DNA from: Myxococcaceae bacterium
GTDB lineage: Bacteria; Myxococcota; Myxococcia; Myxococcales; Myxococcaceae
Length of the DNA: 33,796 nucleotides
Reading direction: 5' to 3'
Assembly: GCA_017881345.1 (NCBI GenBank)
Contig: JADGQZ010000013.1
Coordinates: 1-33,796 of the forward strand
Shown here: positions 1,089 to 33,796 of the stretch, in pieces
How the letters are laid out: every line of letters begins with the position of its first letter
How positions within the stretch are numbered: position 1 is the first letter of the stretch
The notes under the pieces: generated by a model
The model's database searches: none
Told to the model about the DNA's origin: nothing
Seen by the model: only the letters and a program-made list of their open reading frames with translations
Translations under genes and position numbers: made by a program

Positions 1089-1613
1089 TCAGCTCGCCGT
1101 GTCGTGTCCGAGGGCGCGCTGGGCCTCGGCCACACCCGCGTCGGCCGTGCCGCTCTGGAGCACCTGTACCAGCCGGGCATTCACCTCTCCGAGGCGACGC
1201 GCCAGGATGCGCGCGAGCCCGTGAGCGATCTTCAGCGCGGCGACGTTCCCGCTCGACATCCTTGCCCGCAGCGCCGGGCCAGCAACGCTCGCCAGCGTGA
1301 CCTGCCCGACGGCGAGCGCCGAGGCGCTGCGCTTCCCACCGGCCTCGAGCACGGCCATCTCCCCGAGGACGGCCGGCGCGGAGACGACGGAGAGCACCTG
1401 GTGCTTCCCGGTGGGGTCCTTCTTCACCACCTGTGCCGAGCCGGAGAGCAGGAACACCAGCGCATCTCCCGCGTCTCCCTCCCGGAACAGGGGCAGCTGC
1501 GCCTCGAGGGTCTTCGGCTCGGCGAGCCCGGCGATCTCGGCCAGCTCCGGCGCGGTGAGCCCCGAGAGCAGGGGAACGTGGCGGAGTGCCTCGGCCGTCG
1601 GTCGCTCGCTCAT
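1089..1613 (-). CDS. Stand-alone cyclic nucleotide-binding domain protein
   Basis: 174 residues. Residues 10-130 form a cNMP-binding beta-roll of the CRP/PKA-R type: LFREGDAGDALVFLLSGSA, then the phosphate-binding cassette GEMAVLE (84-90) followed by KRSAS (94-98), whose Arg would contact the cyclic phosphate. A C-terminal helix (about 123-152, ARILARRLGEVNARLVQVL) follows, but there is no helix-turn-helix, kinase or channel segment, so it is a sensor module without its own output domain. Its start codon overlaps the stop of the upstream helicase gene (ATGA, 1613-1610), implying translational coupling. Inference: it may bind cAMP or a related nucleotide and act through a partner, possibly the helicase. 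Nucleotide identity cannot be told from sequence. Confidence 0.92.
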   Translation of the reverse strand: MSERPTAEALRHVPLLSGLTAPELAEIAGLAEPKTLEAQLPLFREGDAGDALVFLLSGSAQVVKKDPTGKHQVLSVVSAPAVLGEMAVLEAGGKRSASALAVGQVTLASVAGPALRARMSSGNVAALKIAHGLARILARRLGEVNARLVQVLQSGTADAGVAEAQRALGHDTAS

Positions 1614-3511
1614 CGGCGCCTCGCGCGCTCCAGCCGGAGCGACTTCTCGCCCCGCTTCTGCCCGTCGAGCTTCTCGAACGCCGGGGCATCCTCCTCGGCG
1701 ACGAAGGCGTAGCTGTAGGTCTGCCGGAGCTCGACCCGCTGCACCTTCCCGGCGGGCGCGCGGAGGCCCTCGAGCATCGAGGTGATGCCCGCGGCAGCGA
1801 GCCCCTCGGCGGTCCCGACGTTCATCCAGAGCCGGACCTGTCCCGGAGTCCCGGCCTCGGCCGTTGCCGGCGGAGACCCCTCCTCGGCGCGGTCCCGCCG
1901 CGGTGGACGCTCGGCGCGCTCCCGGCGCTCACGAGGGGCCGCGGAGCGCTCACCGCGCTCCGGTCTGTCGCGCCGCTCGGGTCGGTCTCCGCGCTCGGTT
2001 CGCTCCTCGCGGCGCGGCCGGTCGCTCCGGCTCCGCTCGCGCTCCCGGGGGGGTCGGATGGGTGCCGGCTCCGGCACCGTGCCACCGGCGGCCTTCAGCT
2101 TCTCCATCCGCAGGTGCCCGAAGAAGAACTTCAGGAGATAGGCGATGGCGTCGTCCGCGTCCGGGCGCTGCTTCAGCTCGCCGGCCAGGCCGAGGTAGCC
2201 CTCGTACACGCTCCCGGCGGCGGCGGACTGGATCTCCCGGACGTGCCGCTCGGTCCACATCGTCATCGCCACTTCCGGCGACGGCATCTCGCGCTTCTCG
2301 AACTTGATGCCGTACTTCTTCTCCAGCACGGTGAACGTGCCCAGCTCGCGCCCGGAGATGAGGTTGAGCGCAGTGCCCTTCTTCCCGATGCGCCCCGTCC
2401 GGCCGACACGGTGCAGGTACACGGCCGGGTCCTCGGGCAGCGAGTAGTTGATGACGTATTGCAGGTCGGAGATGTCGATCCCCCGGGCGGCGATGTCGGT
2501 CGCCACCATGAAGGCGACCTCGCCGCGTTTCACCTTGGCCATCACCCGCTCCCGCTCCTTCTGGGGCAGGTCGCCGTTGAGCAGCTCGGCGTCGAATCCG
2601 TTCCGGTTCAGGACCGCGGTGATCAGTGCGGTGTCGTCCCGGGTGTTGCAGAAGACGATGGCGTTGTCCGGCTCCTCCATCTCCAGCACGTAGATGAGGT
2701 TCCGGGGCTTGGGGTACGCGTCCGTGACGTCGTAGCGGACGTGGTGGATGTGGTCGACGGTGAGGACGTCGCCGGAGAGCATCAGCATCTCGGGCGAGGT
2801 GGTGTACTGGCTGATGAGGTGCTGGATCTCCGGGGGCACCGTGGCGCTGAACAGGAGCACCTGCCGGCCCTTGGGGAGCTGGTCGAGGATCCGGGTGACC
2901 TCCTCGTAGAACCCCTGGTTCAGCATCTCGTCGGCCTCGTCGAGCACGACGTGCCGGCAGCCCTGGAGCTTGAGGTTCTTGCGCCGGATATGGTCGTAGA
3001 CCCGGCCTGGCGTGCCGACCACGATGGGGGAGCCGCTCTCCAGCGCGTTCTCCTGGTCCTGCATCGACGCGCCGCCGTAGATGGCGGTGACCCGGATGCC
3101 CTTGTACTTGGCGAGGTCCTGCAGCTCGGCTGCGACCTGAAGCGCCAGCTCCCGGGTGGGGCAGAGGACGAGGGCCCGGACGGCCTTGTCCTCGGGGTCC
3201 ATCTTCTCCAGCAGGGGGAGCCCGAAGGCGGCAGTCTTCCCCGTCCCGGTCTTGCTCCGGACGATGAGGTCCTTGCCCTGCATCACCGGGTCGAAGGCCT
3301 GGGCCTGGACCGGGGTGGGGTGGGTGTAGCCGCGGTCGACCAGAGCGCGGCGGATCTCCGGGGAGAGGGCCAGGTCCTCGAATCCAACCTCGGCCAGGTA
3401 CTCGGAGGGGAGCCCGGGGGGAGCTGCCTCCGGGGCCGTCCCGGGAGGCGGAGCCACGTCGGTCAGCGCAGGAACTTCGCCGCGATCGGGCGCGGACGGG
3501 TTGTCACTCAT
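1610..3511 (-). CDS. deaD: DEAD-box ATP-dependent RNA helicase (DeaD/CsdA-like) with C-terminal DbpA-type RNA-binding domain
   Basis: 633 residues from ATG 3511 (MSDNPSAP); an in-frame extension to 3814 is rejected because it runs through the divergent sigma-factor gene. Helicase motifs in order: Q motif (GYTHPTPVQ, Gln69), Walker A SKTGTGKT (86-93), PTRELALQV (118-126), TPGR (167-170), DEAD (191-194), SAT (222-224), IVFCNTRDD, ATDIAARGIDI, HRVGRTGR. Residues about 495-560 are an Arg/Glu/Pro-rich linker with repeated RPER/RRDRPER units, typical of a disordered RNA-contacting tail. The last 65 residues match the DbpA RRM-like domain (VRLWMNVGTAEGLA). Family members unwind rRNA or mRNA during ribosome assembly and cold adaptation. 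It is divergent from the sigma-factor gene and coupled by ATGA to the CNBD gene downstream. Confidence 0.96.
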   Translation of the reverse strand: MSDNPSAPDRGEVPALTDVAPPPGTAPEAAPPGLPSEYLAEVGFEDLALSPEIRRALVDRGYTHPTPVQAQAFDPVMQGKDLIVRSKTGTGKTAAFGLPLLEKMDPEDKAVRALVLCPTRELALQVAAELQDLAKYKGIRVTAIYGGASMQDQENALESGSPIVVGTPGRVYDHIRRKNLKLQGCRHVVLDEADEMLNQGFYEEVTRILDQLPKGRQVLLFSATVPPEIQHLISQYTTSPEMLMLSGDVLTVDHIHHVRYDVTDAYPKPRNLIYVLEMEEPDNAIVFCNTRDDTALITAVLNRNGFDAELLNGDLPQKERERVMAKVKRGEVAFMVATDIAARGIDISDLQYVINYSLPEDPAVYLHRVGRTGRIGKKGTALNLISGRELGTFTVLEKKYGIKFEKREMPSPEVAMTMWTERHVREIQSAAAGSVYEGYLGLAGELKQRPDADDAIAYLLKFFFGHLRMEKLKAAGGTVPEPAPIRPPRERERSRSDRPRREERTERGDRPERRDRPERGERSAAPRERRERAERPPRRDRAEEGSPPATAEAGTPGQVRLWMNVGTAEGLAAAGITSMLEGLRAPAGKVQRVELRQTYSYAFVAEEDAPAFEKLDGQKRGEKSLRLERARRR

Positions 3512-3593
3512 CGAGCACCCGCTTAATCCCTCCCACACACCCTGGCAATCGCGCAGGCCGGGGGTCCTGCTAGAAGAAGTCGACCGCTCCTCC
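3512..3593. promoter_or_regulatory. Divergent promoter region between helicase and sigma-factor genes
   Basis: Eighty-two bases separate the two start codons, so both promoters must lie here or inside the opposing gene. I cannot identify convincing -35/-10 hexamers. A purine stretch AGAAGAAG (about 3572-3579) precedes the sigma-factor ATG at a longer than usual distance, and GGGAGGGA on the minus strand lies about 17 bases from the helicase ATG. Neither gene therefore has an ideal ribosome binding site. Confidence 0.5.
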
Positions 3594-4748
3594 ATGGCCC
3601 GCCCCCCGAAAAAGCGAGCGATACCGAGCCGCAAGCCGGCTGCGAAGGCAACGGCTCCATCGGCGCGCCCTGCGCCCCGCCCCCCGGCACCGCGGCCCGT
3701 GACGCGGCGGAAGCGCCCGGCACCCGCGGCGGAGGTGGTCCGGGAGGCCCGGCCCGAGGAGGAGGAGGTCGACGAGGCCTCCGAGCCCGCCGAGCCGGAG
3801 GTCGAGGAGCTCACCGAGCTCGAGCCGGTGGTGGCAGAGGCCGAGGCAGGAGCACCCGCACCGCCGCGCTCCAGCGGGTCTGGCCTCGCCCGGGCGGACC
3901 CGATGTCGTCCTACATGGCCGAGGTGCAGCGCCATCCGCTGCTCTCGCGCGAGGAGGAGGTCCGCCTGGCCCGTCTGTACCGGGGCCAGGGTGATCTCGA
4001 CGCCGCGGCCCGGCTGGTCTCCGCCAATCTCCGCCTGGTGGTGAAGCTGGCCCACGAGTACCACCGGAATCCCCTCGCGCTGCTGGACCTGGTGCAGGAG
4101 GGGAACATCGGGCTGATGCAGGCGGTGAAGAAGTTCGATCCGGAGCGGGGAGTGAAGCTCTCCACCTACGCGGCCTGGTGGATCCGCGCGTACATCCTTC
4201 GCTACATCATGGACAACTGGAGGATGGTGAAGCTGGGGACCACCGAGGCCCAGCGAAAGCTCTTCTTCAAGTTGCGCCAGGAGCAGGAGCGGCTGCTCAA
4301 GCAGGGCTACGAGGCCACCCCGAAGCTGCTCGCCGAGCGGCTCAACGTCACCGAGCAGGACGTGCGGGAGATGGACCAGCGGCTCGGCAACGACGAGATC
4401 TCCATCGACGCGCCGGTGGGCGAGGACGGGGACAGCACCCGCGGCGAGCGCATCCTGCCCTCCAGCGGCTTCCCCGCGGCCGACGAGCGGCTGGCGACCG
4501 AGGAGCTGAAGCACCTGTTCCGGGGCAAGCTCGAGGCCTTCGGCAAGACGCTCGAGGGCAAGGAGAAGTACATCTTCGAGAAGCGGCTGACCGCCGACGA
4601 GCCGATGACGCTCCAGGACATCGGCACGCACTTCGGCTTCTCGCGCGAGCGGGCCCGGCAGATCGAGGCGGCGCTGGTGGACCGGATGCGCCGTTTCGTC
4701 CGGTCGGAGATGCCCGACTTCGATCTGATCGCCGAGCCGAAGCCGTGA
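3594..4748 (+). CDS. RpoH-type (heat-shock family) alternative sigma factor with long N-terminal extension
   Basis: 384 residues from ATG 3594; the frame opens earlier, but the extra residues look non-coding. Region 1.2/2 begins at about residue 101 (ADPMSSYMAEVQRHPLLSRE), followed by LVSANLRLVVKLAHEY, DLVQEGNIGLMQAV (region 2.2), FDPERGVKLSTYAAWWIRAYI (2.3-2.4) and the RpoH-box-like QRKLFFKLR (220-228), which in the family contacts core polymerase. Region 4 ends with a helix-turn-helix (FSRERARQIEAALVDRM). Myxococcal SigB/SigC belong to this group; which paralogue this is cannot be decided. The first 100 residues are atypical: Lys/Arg/Pro/Ala-rich to about 50, then Glu-rich to about 85. The gene is convergent with the next one, with only 7 bases between the stops. 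Confidence 0.93.
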   Translation: MARPPKKRAIPSRKPAAKATAPSARPAPRPPAPRPVTRRKRPAPAAEVVREARPEEEEVDEASEPAEPEVEELTELEPVVAEAEAGAPAPPRSSGSGLARADPMSSYMAEVQRHPLLSREEEVRLARLYRGQGDLDAAARLVSANLRLVVKLAHEYHRNPLALLDLVQEGNIGLMQAVKKFDPERGVKLSTYAAWWIRAYILRYIMDNWRMVKLGTTEAQRKLFFKLRQEQERLLKQGYEATPKLLAERLNVTEQDVREMDQRLGNDEISIDAPVGEDGDSTRGERILPSSGFPAADERLATEELKHLFRGKLEAFGKTLEGKEKYIFEKRLTADEPMTLQDIGTHFGFSRERARQIEAALVDRMRRFVRSEMPDFDLIAEPKP

Positions 4749-13026: not shown

Positions 13027-13079
13027 ACTTGCAGCGGCGGAGGAGCATCCCCCGGCAACTCGTCCGCCCGGGAGGGCCC

Positions 13080-13748
13080 ATGGCGTTCATCGGCTTCGAC
13101 GTGTACGGGACCCTGGTCGACCCGCTGGGGATGGACGGACCGCTCCGCGAGCACGTGGGCGACCTGGCCGAGCGATTCGCCGCGACCTGGCGCGAGCGGC
13201 AGATCGACTGGACGTTCCGGCGGGCGCTGATGGGCCGCTACGTCGATTTCGACATCGTCACCCGCGAGGCGTTCCGGGCAACCGCTGCCATTCTCGGGGT
13301 CGACACCCGGACTGCGGAGGCAGGGCTGCTCGAGACGTACCGCCGGCTGCCCGCCTTCGCCGACGCGCACCACGGGCTGGCCCGGCTCGCGGAGGCCGGC
13401 CACCGGATGGTCGCCTTCAGCAACGGCGTCGGCGCGACGCTCCGGGCGCTGCTCGGCCATGCCCGGCTCCTCCCGCCGCTGACCGACGTGGTGAGCGTGG
13501 ACGAAGTTCGTACCTACAAGCCGAACCCGGTCGTCTACCACCACCTCGTCGCGCGCTGCGGGGCGAGCCCCGACCGGACTTGGCTCGTCTCCTCGAACGC
13601 CTGGGACGTCCTGGGGGCGAAATCCGCCGGGTTGAAGGCTGCCTGGGTCCGCCGCTCGACGCGCACGCACTGGGACGGCGGGGGAATCGCCGAGCCGGAC
13701 CTGGTGGTCGCCTCGCTCGGCGAGCTGGTGGATCGGCTGCCGGCCTGA
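13080..13748 (+). CDS. Haloacid dehalogenase, type II (HAD superfamily)
   Basis: 222 residues from ATG 13080, with GGGAGGG just upstream. HAD motif I is FDVYGTLVD with nucleophile Asp7; motif II is FSNG (Ser114-Asn115); motif III Lys147 is in YKPNPVVY; and SSNAWDVLGAKSAGL (171-185) is the signature of the L-2-haloacid dehalogenase branch, whose SSN-xWD motif shapes the active site. The helical cap lies at about 15-95. The family hydrolyses (S)-2-haloacids to (R)-2-hydroxyacids, although many chromosomal members act on other small substrates. The neighbours do not indicate the substrate. Confidence 0.92.
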   Translation: MAFIGFDVYGTLVDPLGMDGPLREHVGDLAERFAATWRERQIDWTFRRALMGRYVDFDIVTREAFRATAAILGVDTRTAEAGLLETYRRLPAFADAHHGLARLAEAGHRMVAFSNGVGATLRALLGHARLLPPLTDVVSVDEVRTYKPNPVVYHHLVARCGASPDRTWLVSSNAWDVLGAKSAGLKAAWVRRSTRTHWDGGGIAEPDLVVASLGELVDRLPA

Positions 13749-16728: not shown

Positions 16729-20286
<3,558 letters not shown>

Positions 20287-20410
20287 GGATGGGAGCCACC
20301 CTTCTACGGCGGCTGGCTGACGGTGTTCTAGCGTCCGTTGCGGGCACTGACCGCCCTGATTTCAAGGACCTTCGCCAGGGCCCTCCCCTGCCACCTCGGC
20401 ACCCGTGCGC

Positions 20411-29193: not shown

Positions 29194-32100
29194 CTAGAAG
29201 GTGATCCGGATGCTGAAGCGGAACTGCCTGACCGGTTGATAGGCGGTCGCCTTGCCCCAGGTGAGGTTGGTCACCGTCGAGGTGAGCACGCCGTTCTGGT
29301 TGGGGAGGCCGACGCGGATGGCGGCGCCGGTTGCCGAGTTGGGATCTACCTTGGGCAGAGGGAGTGAGCCGTTGCCCGTGCCGCAGGTCGACGCGGCGGC
29401 GCCGGTGCAGAGCCCACCGTACTGGTTGGGAACGGTGCCTTGCGTCGCTCCGAGGATGGGGCTCACCTGGCCGGCGGTGTAGTTCTCGTCCACCGAGAGG
29501 GGCCGCTGCGAGTTGAAGAGGTTGAACCCCTCCACCGCGGCGGTGAGCACCGAGTCCTTGCCCATCCGGAAGTTGACTCCGACCTTGGCGTCGAACGAGG
29601 TGACCCAGGGGAGCCGACCGGCGCTGCCGCGGGTGATGATGAACGACTGCCCCGCGCCGTAGATGGGATGTGCGCCCAGGGCGTTGATCGGCGGTCCCGA
29701 GTTGCCGTTGAAGGACAGGCCGACGTTCATGCTGAACACCGGGTTGAAGACGAACTCCTTGGCCACGAACGCCTTCACCGAGTGGGTGATGTCACCGCTC
29801 AGCGGGCCGGTCTGGTTGAGGAGCAGGGTCCTCAGGTCGAAGGTGGAGTTGATGTTCGGGTCGAGCTGCGGGGCGCCGAGCGCGCCGCTGCCCTGGGTGT
29901 TGAAGAGCCCGTCGTAGTTTCCCGTCAGCTTGGACCAGGTGTAGCTCGCCTGCGCCAGCCACAGATCGGCGAAGGTCTTGGTGAACTGCACCGTGACCGC
30001 CTGGTACGTCCGCTGGGCAGTGGGAAAGGCGTTGCCGATCCCGCTTCCGGGGTTGCCGATGAAGTAGGTCTGGCCGTCGTTGTTGGACATGTCCTCCACC
30101 GTCCGCACGAGGTTGCGGTAGGTGTAGGTGACGCCGAGCCGCGCGTTGGGGATGACCTCGTACTCGGCCCCGGCGACGATCTCGTCGTTGGACGGGGACT
30201 TCAGCGCCGGGTCCACGTACGAGGGGTAGGGCGGTCCGGTGACGTTCCACTGGCGGTTCGGCACCTCGGTGAAGCCGTTGATCAGCGCGGAGCCGCCGTT
30301 CAGGGTGTTCGCGTCGCAGCCCTGGCGTCCGACGACCAGCGGATTGCAGACGTGAACTGCCGACGCCGCGGGCTGAGAGCTGCTCAGCGCGCGGTCGGAG
30401 ATGTCGAGCGGGATGTACTCGTAGTAGCGGCCGTAGTTGACGAAGATCTTCGAGCGGCCCTGCTGGGTGGGATCCCACACCACGCCGACGCGCGGGCTGA
30501 GCTGGTCACCGAGCGAGATGCGGGTCAGCCCGTCCTGCCCCTGCAGGGTCAGGCCGTCCCAGCGCACGCCGATGTTCAGGGTGACCTTGTCCGCGATGCT
30601 CCAGCTGTCCTGGACGAACCCCCCGACGATGGTCGACTTGGTCGCGGTCTGCACCCGCGGCGTGTCGCTGATGGTGTCCACCCCGGTGAGATAGGTGAAG
30701 CGCCGGTAGTCGTAGACCGAGCCCGGAGGCCCGCCGAGATCGAGGCCGCTCCGGTACACCGCCCCACCGCTGTACGTCTCGTCGTGGGTGTAGTTGTTGA
30801 TCTGTCCGTCGAAGCCGGCCTTGAGCACGTGGTGGCCGAGCCAGGTGGCCAGGTAGGTCACCACCACCCGCGCCTGGTAGCTGTTGAAGTCCAGCGTCTC
30901 GAGGAGACCGCCGGGGCCACCGGTGAAGTAGCGCACCACGTTGCAGGAGGCGCCGGCCTCGCTGCAGGCCTGGGTCACCGAGGCGGGGACCGAGGTGTCG
31001 AGCTGGTACACCGGCGTGGGCACGCCGGCGGGCGAGCGGACCTGCGGCACACCCGCCAGGACGGCCGGGTTGTTGATGTCGTCGAGCGTGCTGCCGTCGG
31101 CGGGCAGGAACGAATCGCGCTGGAGGTGGACGCCGAGCTTCACGTCGAGCAGCAGCCGCTTGTCGAGGAACGAGCTGTTCAGCTCGGCGGCGATGTCCAT
31201 CGCGTTGAAGCTCGATTCGGTCGCCCCGGAGTTGTAGGTGCCGAGGGTGAGGAGCGTCGCGTTGAACGGCGTGCGGTTGGTGGAGCGGTTCCGGATGGTC
31301 ACCTCGCCCGGGCCGCCCCCCTTGGTGGGCGTGCCGGTCACGGTCAGGCTCACCCGGTGGTCGGAGCTGATGAGGTAGGTGAGCTTCCCGATGTAGTTGA
31401 TGCTCTGCTCGTCGCCGAAGCGGCGCTGCTCCGAGTTGGCGATTGGCTCCAGCACCCCGTTGAAGAGCCGGTTGAACGAGCGGCTGTAGATGTAGCGCTG
31501 CGCGGAGAACTGGATGCCGGCGAAGAACCACAGCTTGTCCTTGATGATGTAGCCGCCGACGGTGGCCCCGAAGTCACCGAAGTTCCCGAGGTCCCGCTTG
31601 CCCTGGATGATCGGCGTCGCGCCCTGCACGGTGTTGGCCGGTCCGGTCAGGCCCCCCGGGGTGTAGGTGCCCCAGACAGATCCGTGGAACTCGTTGCCGC
31701 CCGACTTGGTGATCGCGCTGATCGCCCCGCCGCTGGTCCGGCCGTACTCGGGCATGTACCCGCCGGTCACCACGTTCACCTCGTCCATGAACTCGGAGGT
31801 GAGGGGCGTGCCGAGCGTGCCGAAGCCGGGGTTGTTCACCGCGATCCCGTCGATGAGGTACAGGTTCTCGGGCGAGGTCGCCCCGTTGATCCCCACGCCG
31901 TAGAAGTCCGCGTTGGCCTGCGGTGCCACGATGGCCAGGGAGTCGAACGACCGGTTCGCCCCGCCCAGACCTCCGGGTCGTGACACGGCCAGGTTCCGGA
32001 CGAAGTCCTGGTTGATGCTGGTGCCGGTGGCGCTCGAGCCGATGTCGATGGTCGGTGGAGTCCCGATGACGGTCACCGTCTCGCTGCCGGCGGTCTCGGG

Positions 32101-32454
32101 CAGCAGCTCGACGTTGAGGCGCAGGGTCCGGTCCGCCGCGACCTCGATCCCCGCGCGGGCGAATGGACGGTACGACTCCTTCTCGAATCGCAGGGTGTAC
32201 GTCCCTGGTGGCAGCTGCGGGACCCGGTAGAGACCGGTGGCGTCGGTCACCACCACCTGCTCGCCCTGCAGAGTCGGCGCGGTGGCGGTGACCACCACGT
32301 CGGCGACCGGCGCCTTGGTGGCCGCATCGACCACGTTTCCGGTGAGCACCGAGGTGCTGGCTTGCGCCAGCGCCATGGCAGGGACGAGACCGAGCAGTAC
32401 CGCGCATGCCCGACCCCATCGTGTCGTTCCCAGTTTGGATCGCTCCAAGAGCAC
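29194..32454 (-). CDS. Oar-like TonB-dependent outer-membrane receptor with carboxypeptidase-regulatory domain
   Basis: 1086 residues from GTG 32454. AGGAGGG ends only one or two bases before that GTG, whereas a TTG at 32448 has ideal spacing of about seven bases and may be the real start. The signal peptide is RACAVLLGLVPAMALA. Residues about 35-120 are a carboxypeptidase-D regulatory-like beta-sandwich (LTGNVVDAATKAPVADVVVT, GLYRVPQLPPGTYTLRFEK). The plug contains NLYLIDGIAVNNPGFGTLGT and EYGRTSGGAISAITKSGGNE. A large beta-barrel follows and ends RQFRFSIRITF, with the terminal Phe of outer-membrane proteins. No classical TonB box is recognised. It could import a substrate or secrete/display a protein, as proposed for Oar. 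Confidence 0.94.
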   Translation of the reverse strand: MLLERSKLGTTRWGRACAVLLGLVPAMALAQASTSVLTGNVVDAATKAPVADVVVTATAPTLQGEQVVVTDATGLYRVPQLPPGTYTLRFEKESYRPFARAGIEVAADRTLRLNVELLPETAGSETVTVIGTPPTIDIGSSATGTSINQDFVRNLAVSRPGGLGGANRSFDSLAIVAPQANADFYGVGINGATSPENLYLIDGIAVNNPGFGTLGTPLTSEFMDEVNVVTGGYMPEYGRTSGGAISAITKSGGNEFHGSVWGTYTPGGLTGPANTVQGATPIIQGKRDLGNFGDFGATVGGYIIKDKLWFFAGIQFSAQRYIYSRSFNRLFNGVLEPIANSEQRRFGDEQSINYIGKLTYLISSDHRVSLTVTGTPTKGGGPGEVTIRNRSTNRTPFNATLLTLGTYNSGATESSFNAMDIAAELNSSFLDKRLLLDVKLGVHLQRDSFLPADGSTLDDINNPAVLAGVPQVRSPAGVPTPVYQLDTSVPASVTQACSEAGASCNVVRYFTGGPGGLLETLDFNSYQARVVVTYLATWLGHHVLKAGFDGQINNYTHDETYSGGAVYRSGLDLGGPPGSVYDYRRFTYLTGVDTISDTPRVQTATKSTIVGGFVQDSWSIADKVTLNIGVRWDGLTLQGQDGLTRISLGDQLSPRVGVVWDPTQQGRSKIFVNYGRYYEYIPLDISDRALSSSQPAASAVHVCNPLVVGRQGCDANTLNGGSALINGFTEVPNRQWNVTGPPYPSYVDPALKSPSNDEIVAGAEYEVIPNARLGVTYTYRNLVRTVEDMSNNDGQTYFIGNPGSGIGNAFPTAQRTYQAVTVQFTKTFADLWLAQASYTWSKLTGNYDGLFNTQGSGALGAPQLDPNINSTFDLRTLLLNQTGPLSGDITHSVKAFVAKEFVFNPVFSMNVGLSFNGNSGPPINALGAHPIYGAGQSFIITRGSAGRLPWVTSFDAKVGVNFRMGKDSVLTAAVEGFNLFNSQRPLSVDENYTAGQVSPILGATQGTVPNQYGGLCTGAAASTCGTGNGSLPLPKVDPNSATGAAIRVGLPNQNGVLTSTVTNLTWGKATAYQPVRQFRFSIRITF

Positions 32455-32680: not shown

Positions 32681-33796
32681 CTAGAGAGTGACGGGGACGG
32701 CCGAGATGCCCCAGATGTCGCGCGCGTACTGGTGGATGCTCCGGTCCGAGCTGAAGCGTCCCACCCGTGCAACGTTGAGCAGCGCACGTCGCGACCAGCC
32801 ATCCGGGTCGCCGGCGTAGGCCCGCGCCACCTCGGACTGCGCGTCGGCGTAGGCCCGGAAGTCGGCGAGGACCAGATAGCGATCCTCCTGCACCAGCGCG
32901 TCCACCAGCGGGTGGAAGAGCTCGGGATCCTCGGGAGAGAAGAAGCCGGTGCCGACCAGCTCCAGCACTGCCCGCAGCTCCGGGTCGCGGGCCAGGACCT
33001 CGGCTGGCCGGTAGCCGGCGCGCAGCGTCTGCTCGACCTGATCGGCGGTCAGCCCGAAGAGGAAGAAGTTCTCGGGGCCCACCGCGTCCCGGATCTCGAT
33101 GTTGGCCCCGTCCAGCGTGCCGAGGGTGAGCGCTCCGTTGAGCGCGAACTTCATGTTCCCCGTGCCGGAGGCCTCCTTGCCGGCAGTGGAGATCTGCTCC
33201 GAGACGTCCGCCGCGGGGATGATCCTCTCGGCCAGGCTGACCCGGTAGTTGGGGAGGAACACCACCTGGATGCCGGTGTGGCCCGAGTCGGCGTTCACCA
33301 CCTCGGCGATGCCGTTGATCAGCCGGATGATCAGCTTGGCCAGGAGATATCCCGGCGCGGCCTTGGCCCCGAAGAGGAACACCCGGGGGTGCACCACCGA
33401 CGCCGGGTTCTCGCGGGCTCGCATCCACAGCGCCACGATGTGCAGCGCATTCAGGAGCTGCCGCTTGTACTCGTGCAGCCGCTTGATCTGCACGTCGAAG
33501 ATCGCGTCAGGCGAGACCTGCACGCCGCATTCGCGTTCGATGAGCGCAGCGAGTTCCACCTTGTTGGCGCGCTTTACCGCCATGAATTCACGGCGGAAAC
33601 CGGCATCGTCGGCGAACGGTTCGAGGCCGCGCAGCAGGTCGAGATCGCGGGCCCAGGCTTCGCTGGCGAGGGTGCGGGTGATGAGCGCGGCGAGGCCGGG
33701 ATTGGCTTTGCGCAGCCAGCGACGCGGAGTGATGCCGTTGGTCTTGTTGTTGAATTTGCCCGGATAGAGCTCGTTGAACTCGGGGAAGAGCGTGCG
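32681..33796 (-). CDS. glgP: Glycogen/maltodextrin phosphorylase, C-terminal part (5' end outside window)
   Basis: The frame is open to the window edge, giving the last 371 residues of a protein usually about 830 long. It releases glucose 1-phosphate from alpha-1,4-glucans using pyridoxal phosphate. FNNKTNGITPRRWL, QIKRLHEYKRQLLN, PNYRVSLAERIIPAADVSEQ and EASGTGNMKFALNGALTLGT are all hallmark motifs; the Lys in GNMKF forms the cofactor aldimine. It ends SIHQYARDIWGISAVPVTL. The 5' part in view (about 33520-33796) prefers GAA for Glu and CGC/CGT for Arg, while the rest uses GAG and CGG like the neighbouring genes. Gene symbol by family; malP cannot be excluded. Confidence 0.96.
   Translation of the reverse strand, partial: RTLFPEFNELYPGKFNNKTNGITPRRWLRKANPGLAALITRTLASEAWARDLDLLRGLEPFADDAGFRREFMAVKRANKVELAALIERECGVQVSPDAIFDVQIKRLHEYKRQLLNALHIVALWMRARENPASVVHPRVFLFGAKAAPGYLLAKLIIRLINGIAEVVNADSGHTGIQVVFLPNYRVSLAERIIPAADVSEQISTAGKEASGTGNMKFALNGALTLGTLDGANIEIRDAVGPENFFLFGLTADQVEQTLRAGYRPAEVLARDPELRAVLELVGTGFFSPEDPELFHPLVDALVQEDRYLVLADFRAYADAQSEVARAYAGDPDGWSRRALLNVARVGRFSSDRSIHQYARDIWGISAVPVTL

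Follow-up and report, generated by a model that had tools for sequence, protein, structure and literature searches.

Contigs whose ends carry sequence from another species have been described from the short-read metagenome assembly of a mock community (PMC8172020). In the part of that study that presents these chimeras, the partners are two highly similar genomes, those of Salmonella enterica and Escherichia coli. The contig considered here, C396, resembles the chimeras presented there in that foreign sequence occurs only at the contig end. In contrast to those examples, the partners in the present case differ in phylum or family, as judged by their nearest relatives, and resemble each other only along a short segment of one conserved gene. 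Moreover, two contigs are affected here at one spot.

C396 makes up the whole of the window, that is, the complete stretch of 33,796 bases that was analysed, and belongs to a metagenome bin (G000) of 4.80 Mb in 517 contigs, which is 83.0% complete and 5.66% contaminated. At its right end, a frame of 371 residues on the minus strand (32681-33796) encodes a glycogen phosphorylase, the 5' side of which is cut by the contig end. The Pfam family PF00343 (Carbohydrate phosphorylase) spans the whole frame, from profile position 351 to position 713 of 713, with a score of 520.2 bits against a Pfam gathering cut-off of 27. As in the family at large, the first 104 residues of the frame, referred to below as the head, and the 3' part are both homologous phosphorylase sequence and stand in register. 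Unlike members of the family, however, the assembled polypeptide is probably present in no cell. The last 312 bases of the window are almost certainly a piece of another bacterium's phosphorylase gene that was misjoined during assembly, an ordinary artefact. The features concerned are given in Table 1.

Table 1. Features at the right end of the window, in coordinates of C396
Feature	Position	Strand	Evidence
TonB-dependent receptor-like protein with carboxypeptidase-regulatory domain; downstream neighbour and native anchor	29194..32454	-	Pfam; G001 match
Native 3' part of the organism's phosphorylase (last 257 residues and stop codon, plus the remainder of the codon spanning the border)	32681..33455	-	PF00343; 228/258 residues identical to G001; GAG in 15/15 Glu codons
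Junction zone, 29 bases (KRLHEYKRQ and two bases more)	33456..33484	-	Matches C81 38732-38760
Foreign 5' piece of 104 codons, Verrucomicrobiota/Opitutae-like phosphorylase	33485..33796	-	84/104 residues identical to G120 and 51/104 to G001; GAA in 6/8 Glu codons

Codon usage within the frame

A sequence-only reading of this DNA had reported that codon usage switches inside the phosphorylase gene near the window edge, at about 33520, for both glutamate and arginine, while the protein continues without a break. The switch itself was correctly recognized. In the 104 codons of 33485-33796, glutamate is encoded by GAA six times and by GAG twice, whereas the 258 codons of 32681-33455, the stop included, contain no GAA and 15 GAG. 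Likewise, the head encodes arginine only as CGC (9) and CGT (2), with CGG, CGA and AGR all absent, while the 3' part has CGG 10, CGC 6, CGA 2, CGT 1 and AGG 1. The chance of finding at least six GAA among eight Glu codons is P about 1e-6 at a background of 34 GAA and 545 GAG, although the background GAA rate is approximate because the pool holds overlapping and probably non-coding frames. This background was pooled from the open frames of the window with a third-position GC above 0.85, leaving out the phosphorylase gene. Within these pooled high-GC3 frames, none of the 371 series of eight consecutive Glu codons includes six GAA. The frame is open throughout, so that the protein is indeed uninterrupted across the switch.

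The position given for the switch did not hold. Comparison with C81, a second contig of the bin, and with relatives places the border inside the 29-base junction zone. Codon usage alone fixes neither the border nor the donor, because two of the Glu codons in the foreign part are themselves GAG (upper ends 33772 and 33781) and because GAA is not general among the relatives of the head, the nine shown having from 3 to 23 GAA per gene.

Relatives of the two parts of the frame

Separate comparison of the two halves, a check that the sequence-only reading had proposed, gave different nearest relatives, namely G120 for the head and G001, a genome of the same genus as the bin, for the 3' part. The head is 49% identical to the phosphorylase of G001, while the 258 residues past the KRLHEYKRQ motif are 88% identical to it. 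For G120 the corresponding values are 84/104 residues in the head and 155/258 in the 3' part. Further comparison was made with 29 relatives, which are the loci fetched for this purpose; 57 of the 60 related genomes searched gave a match. The genes of these relatives are 45-55% identical to the window over the first 89 residues and 65-88% identical over the last 246, and the foreign head occurs in none of the 29 phosphorylase genes compared. As a control, the head region and the 3' part were contrasted in all 812 ordered pairs of the 29 genes. Among the relatives, the 3' part tends to be somewhat better conserved than the head region, the mean difference being 6.7 points (sd 4.3). However, the maximum in these pairs is 16 points, against 39 points for the window and G001.

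The affinities of the head point to the Verrucomicrobiota, of which the Spartobacteria, Terrimicrobiaceae and Opitutales are members. It is 74% identical to the sequence from a named Opitutae bin, and the first 12 of at least 80 named loci listed for it have names from the Verrucomicrobiota, among them Opitutae, Opitutia and Spartobacteria. From the 13th match on, the named loci listed mix many phyla. The best match among the named loci listed reaches 71% over 89 residues. When 384 genomes sampled from the class to which the Opitutae bin belongs were searched with the head, 179 gave a match, the best being G120 at 82%; over the full head, 243/312 bases are shared with this genome. These 384 genomes did not yield the donor of the head, whose relatives among them reach only the 82% of G120. 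Identities of the head and of the 3' part were tabulated side by side for 43 loci, comprising the 29 relatives and 14 of the at least 80 named loci listed, one of these 14 (L046) being an incomplete frame. Two others of the 14, L045 from the Opitutales (56% in the head and 57% in the 3' part) and L049 from the Verrucomicrobia (53% in the head and 59% in the 3' part), do not favour the head.

A native 5' half on a second contig

C81, which belongs to the same bin, stops at base 38842 within a second phosphorylase gene (locus L117). Residues 41-560 of this phosphorylase share 91% identity with the G001 gene, tblastn giving 89% over 572 residues, and the 100-residue stretch that stops six residues ahead of the motif is 81% identical to G001. 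In the 104 residues that correspond to the head of the window, the native head of C81 is 82% identical to G001. It also beats the assembled head against 28 of the 29 relatives, the exception being L035, where both stand at 53% (rounded). Ahead of the motif, the Glu codons of C81 are GAA 2 and GAG 38, and by this count its 5' half shares the codon usage of the 3' part of the window. The sequence-only reading had set against its own proposal the case in which the full gene and its 5' neighbours have the usage of the 3' half, together with uniform coverage. As regards the gene's own 5' part, this usage is indeed seen, on C81. Since the usage of C81 is like that of the 3' half of the window, it argues against a mosaic gene and for a misjoin.

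The longest exact stretch common to both contig ends is the 29 bases of the junction zone. At this 29-mer, identity switches from native to foreign in C81 and from foreign to native in the window, and the flanks differ on both sides. Joining native sequence to native sequence at the 29-mer gives a single frame of 833 residues. In bins of 40 residues, the joined gene is 78-98% identical to G001 past residue 40; the first bin, at the protein start, is 22% identical. The bins around the native join stand at 80, 78, 95 (the bin that contains the join) and 95%. These bins indicate that the native gene keeps a step at the motif, from 82% in the head to 88% in the 3' part, of a size also seen in the control pairs. 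The possibility that C81 carries a paralogue with its own, separate 3' half was rejected, because one close gene of G001 matches C81 and the 3' part of that same gene matches the window. The G001 phosphorylase gene itself lacks its 5' side, having been cut by the end of its contig.

Gene order was compared on both sides of the gene. In G001, the gene next downstream of the phosphorylase is TonB-receptor-like and shares 79% identity with the downstream neighbour in Table 1 along 1090 residues; the upstream side is outside view, as the contig ends within the phosphorylase. The phosphorylase of G021 is directly preceded by a frame with 75% identity to a Peptidase_M23 frame of C81, and in C81 that frame sits about 1.6 kb ahead of the start of the phosphorylase. 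On the downstream side, G021 has a frame matching positions 13077-13742 of the window and gave no match to a TonB receptor. By these neighbour matches, G001 links the gene to the window side and G021 links it to the C81 side. The simplest reading is that C81 and C396 adjoin in the native chromosome, gene order alone being no proof of this.

The foreign tail of C81

The last 82 bases of C81 past the 29-mer (38761-38842) are a foreign phosphorylase tail. Its last 28 residues agree with G001 at 13/28 positions, compared with 26/28 for the window at that place. In a search of 98 related genomes, 84 of which gave a match, the terminal 37 residues of C81, motif included, were 81% identical in G478 and G047 (family f7, same order) and 59% identical in G001. 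Without the motif, the tail agrees at 21/28 residues with L131 and equally with L132, loci whose genomes belong to a different family within this order. L132 and C81 are, moreover, exactly alike over at least 41 bases at the motif. Comparison of the tail with 109 loci, 71 of which had the motif and enough sequence, gave a best value of 17/28.

The tail reads LLNVLHVVASYLRLKANP, where the nine Opitutae-type relatives shown have HLNLLHI, and for this reason it probably does not continue the head of the window. All nine of these relatives also differ from the 29-mer, either inside it or at its last base. A simple reciprocal swap between two genomes was rejected on the grounds that the tail is unlike HLNLLHI and that its best matches lie in another family. 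To judge from these 28 residues and from the 98 related genomes searched, the short tail, though uncertain in origin, probably derives from a third lineage, which would belong to a different family within the order of the bin. The sequence of the tail and its best matches thus suggest that at least three lineages meet at the motif.

Probable misjoin at the contig end

A misjoin between species is almost certainly the origin of the contig end. In this account, several organisms in the sample, presumably with the donor of the head among them, have near-identical DNA over the stretch encoding KRLHEYKRQ, owing to which the assembly graph would branch at the motif. The native gene, an ordinary glycogen phosphorylase, was broken there into C81, with the 5' half, and C396, with the 3' half. 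C396 was then extended by 312 bases of an Opitutae-like gene and C81 by 82 bases, probably of the gene of a third lineage. The two switches of identity, the 29-mer common to both contigs, the split of the native halves and their fit to G001 in one frame are observed directly, whereas we infer that short shared k-mers were the cause of the misjoin. In its support, the foreign sequence extends as far as the end of the contig, and the native gene continues on another contig, C81. Several observations were counted against it. The reading frame continues across the junction, which a real recombinant would show as well; however, this also fits a misjoin, since any join within a shared coding stretch keeps the frame. 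In addition, the native head too has a lower identity to G001 than the 3' part (82 versus 88%), as in the control pairs. Also on this side stand L035, to which the native head is no closer than the foreign one, and the differing gene after the phosphorylase of G021.

The sequence-only reading had offered two origins for the switch. Chimeric assembly of two organisms at a conserved gene is borne out by the differing relatives of the two parts, by the confinement of the head to a contig end and by the native half on C81. Recombination within the gene lacks support, given the absence of the foreign head from all 29 relatives' genes compared and the presence of the native 5' half on C81. In its explicit form, a true mosaic between phyla, a Verrucomicrobiota donor would have replaced the 5' part of the gene by a crossover in the KRLHEYKRQ stretch. 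Such an event is very unlikely, even though the frame is open through the junction and the switch in both codon usage and identity is real. The native-like 5' half held by the bin is itself cut at the same 29-mer, and the foreign part amounts to only 312 bases at a contig end. The lack of the head in the relatives also speaks against a mosaic, although a shared junction would be expected only of an old event. Furthermore, the tail of C81 is apparently of yet another origin, which one recombination does not account for.

Slimmer still is the chance of a strain mixture, with the native gene in some cells and a recombinant in others, from which the assembler kept part of each. C81 and C396 could then both be real, but this would require two independent recombinations at one 29-mer, apparently with two donors, and each near a contig end. 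Finally, the explanation that there is no foreign piece, and that codon usage and conservation simply vary along an ordinary gene, has a negligible probability, because the lower conservation of the head region among relatives falls far short of the 39 points found here, no run of eight Glu codons in the pooled frames is comparable and a native-like head exists on C81; natural codon variation was rejected by the chance estimate and the control pairs.

Understood as a misjoin, the end of C396 holds no new biology. It does provide a clean and checkable case in which one short conserved motif splits a gene into two contigs, both of which gain foreign ends. Such ends in metagenome bins can be mistaken for horizontal transfer or for a mosaic enzyme, and the protein predicted from the end of C396 should be kept out of trees and databases.

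Other observations

A distant second phosphorylase-type gene with a PF00343 match is present in the same bin on contig C31 (24461-24733, locus L003), where the match is 43% identical to query residues 143-238. A similar weak phosphorylase-type match occurs on contig C286 of G001.

Elsewhere in the window, the minus strand carries a DEAD-box helicase frame at 1613-3910, the end of which is weakly DbpA-like and RNA-binding in type, and the plus strand carries a sigma-70 factor frame at 3330-4745. The two overlap at their starts, as stop-to-stop frames. The frame at 16732-20361 encodes the DNA polymerase III alpha subunit, with PHP, alpha NTPase, finger, HHH and OB domains, and its third positions are strongly GC-biased (0.96).
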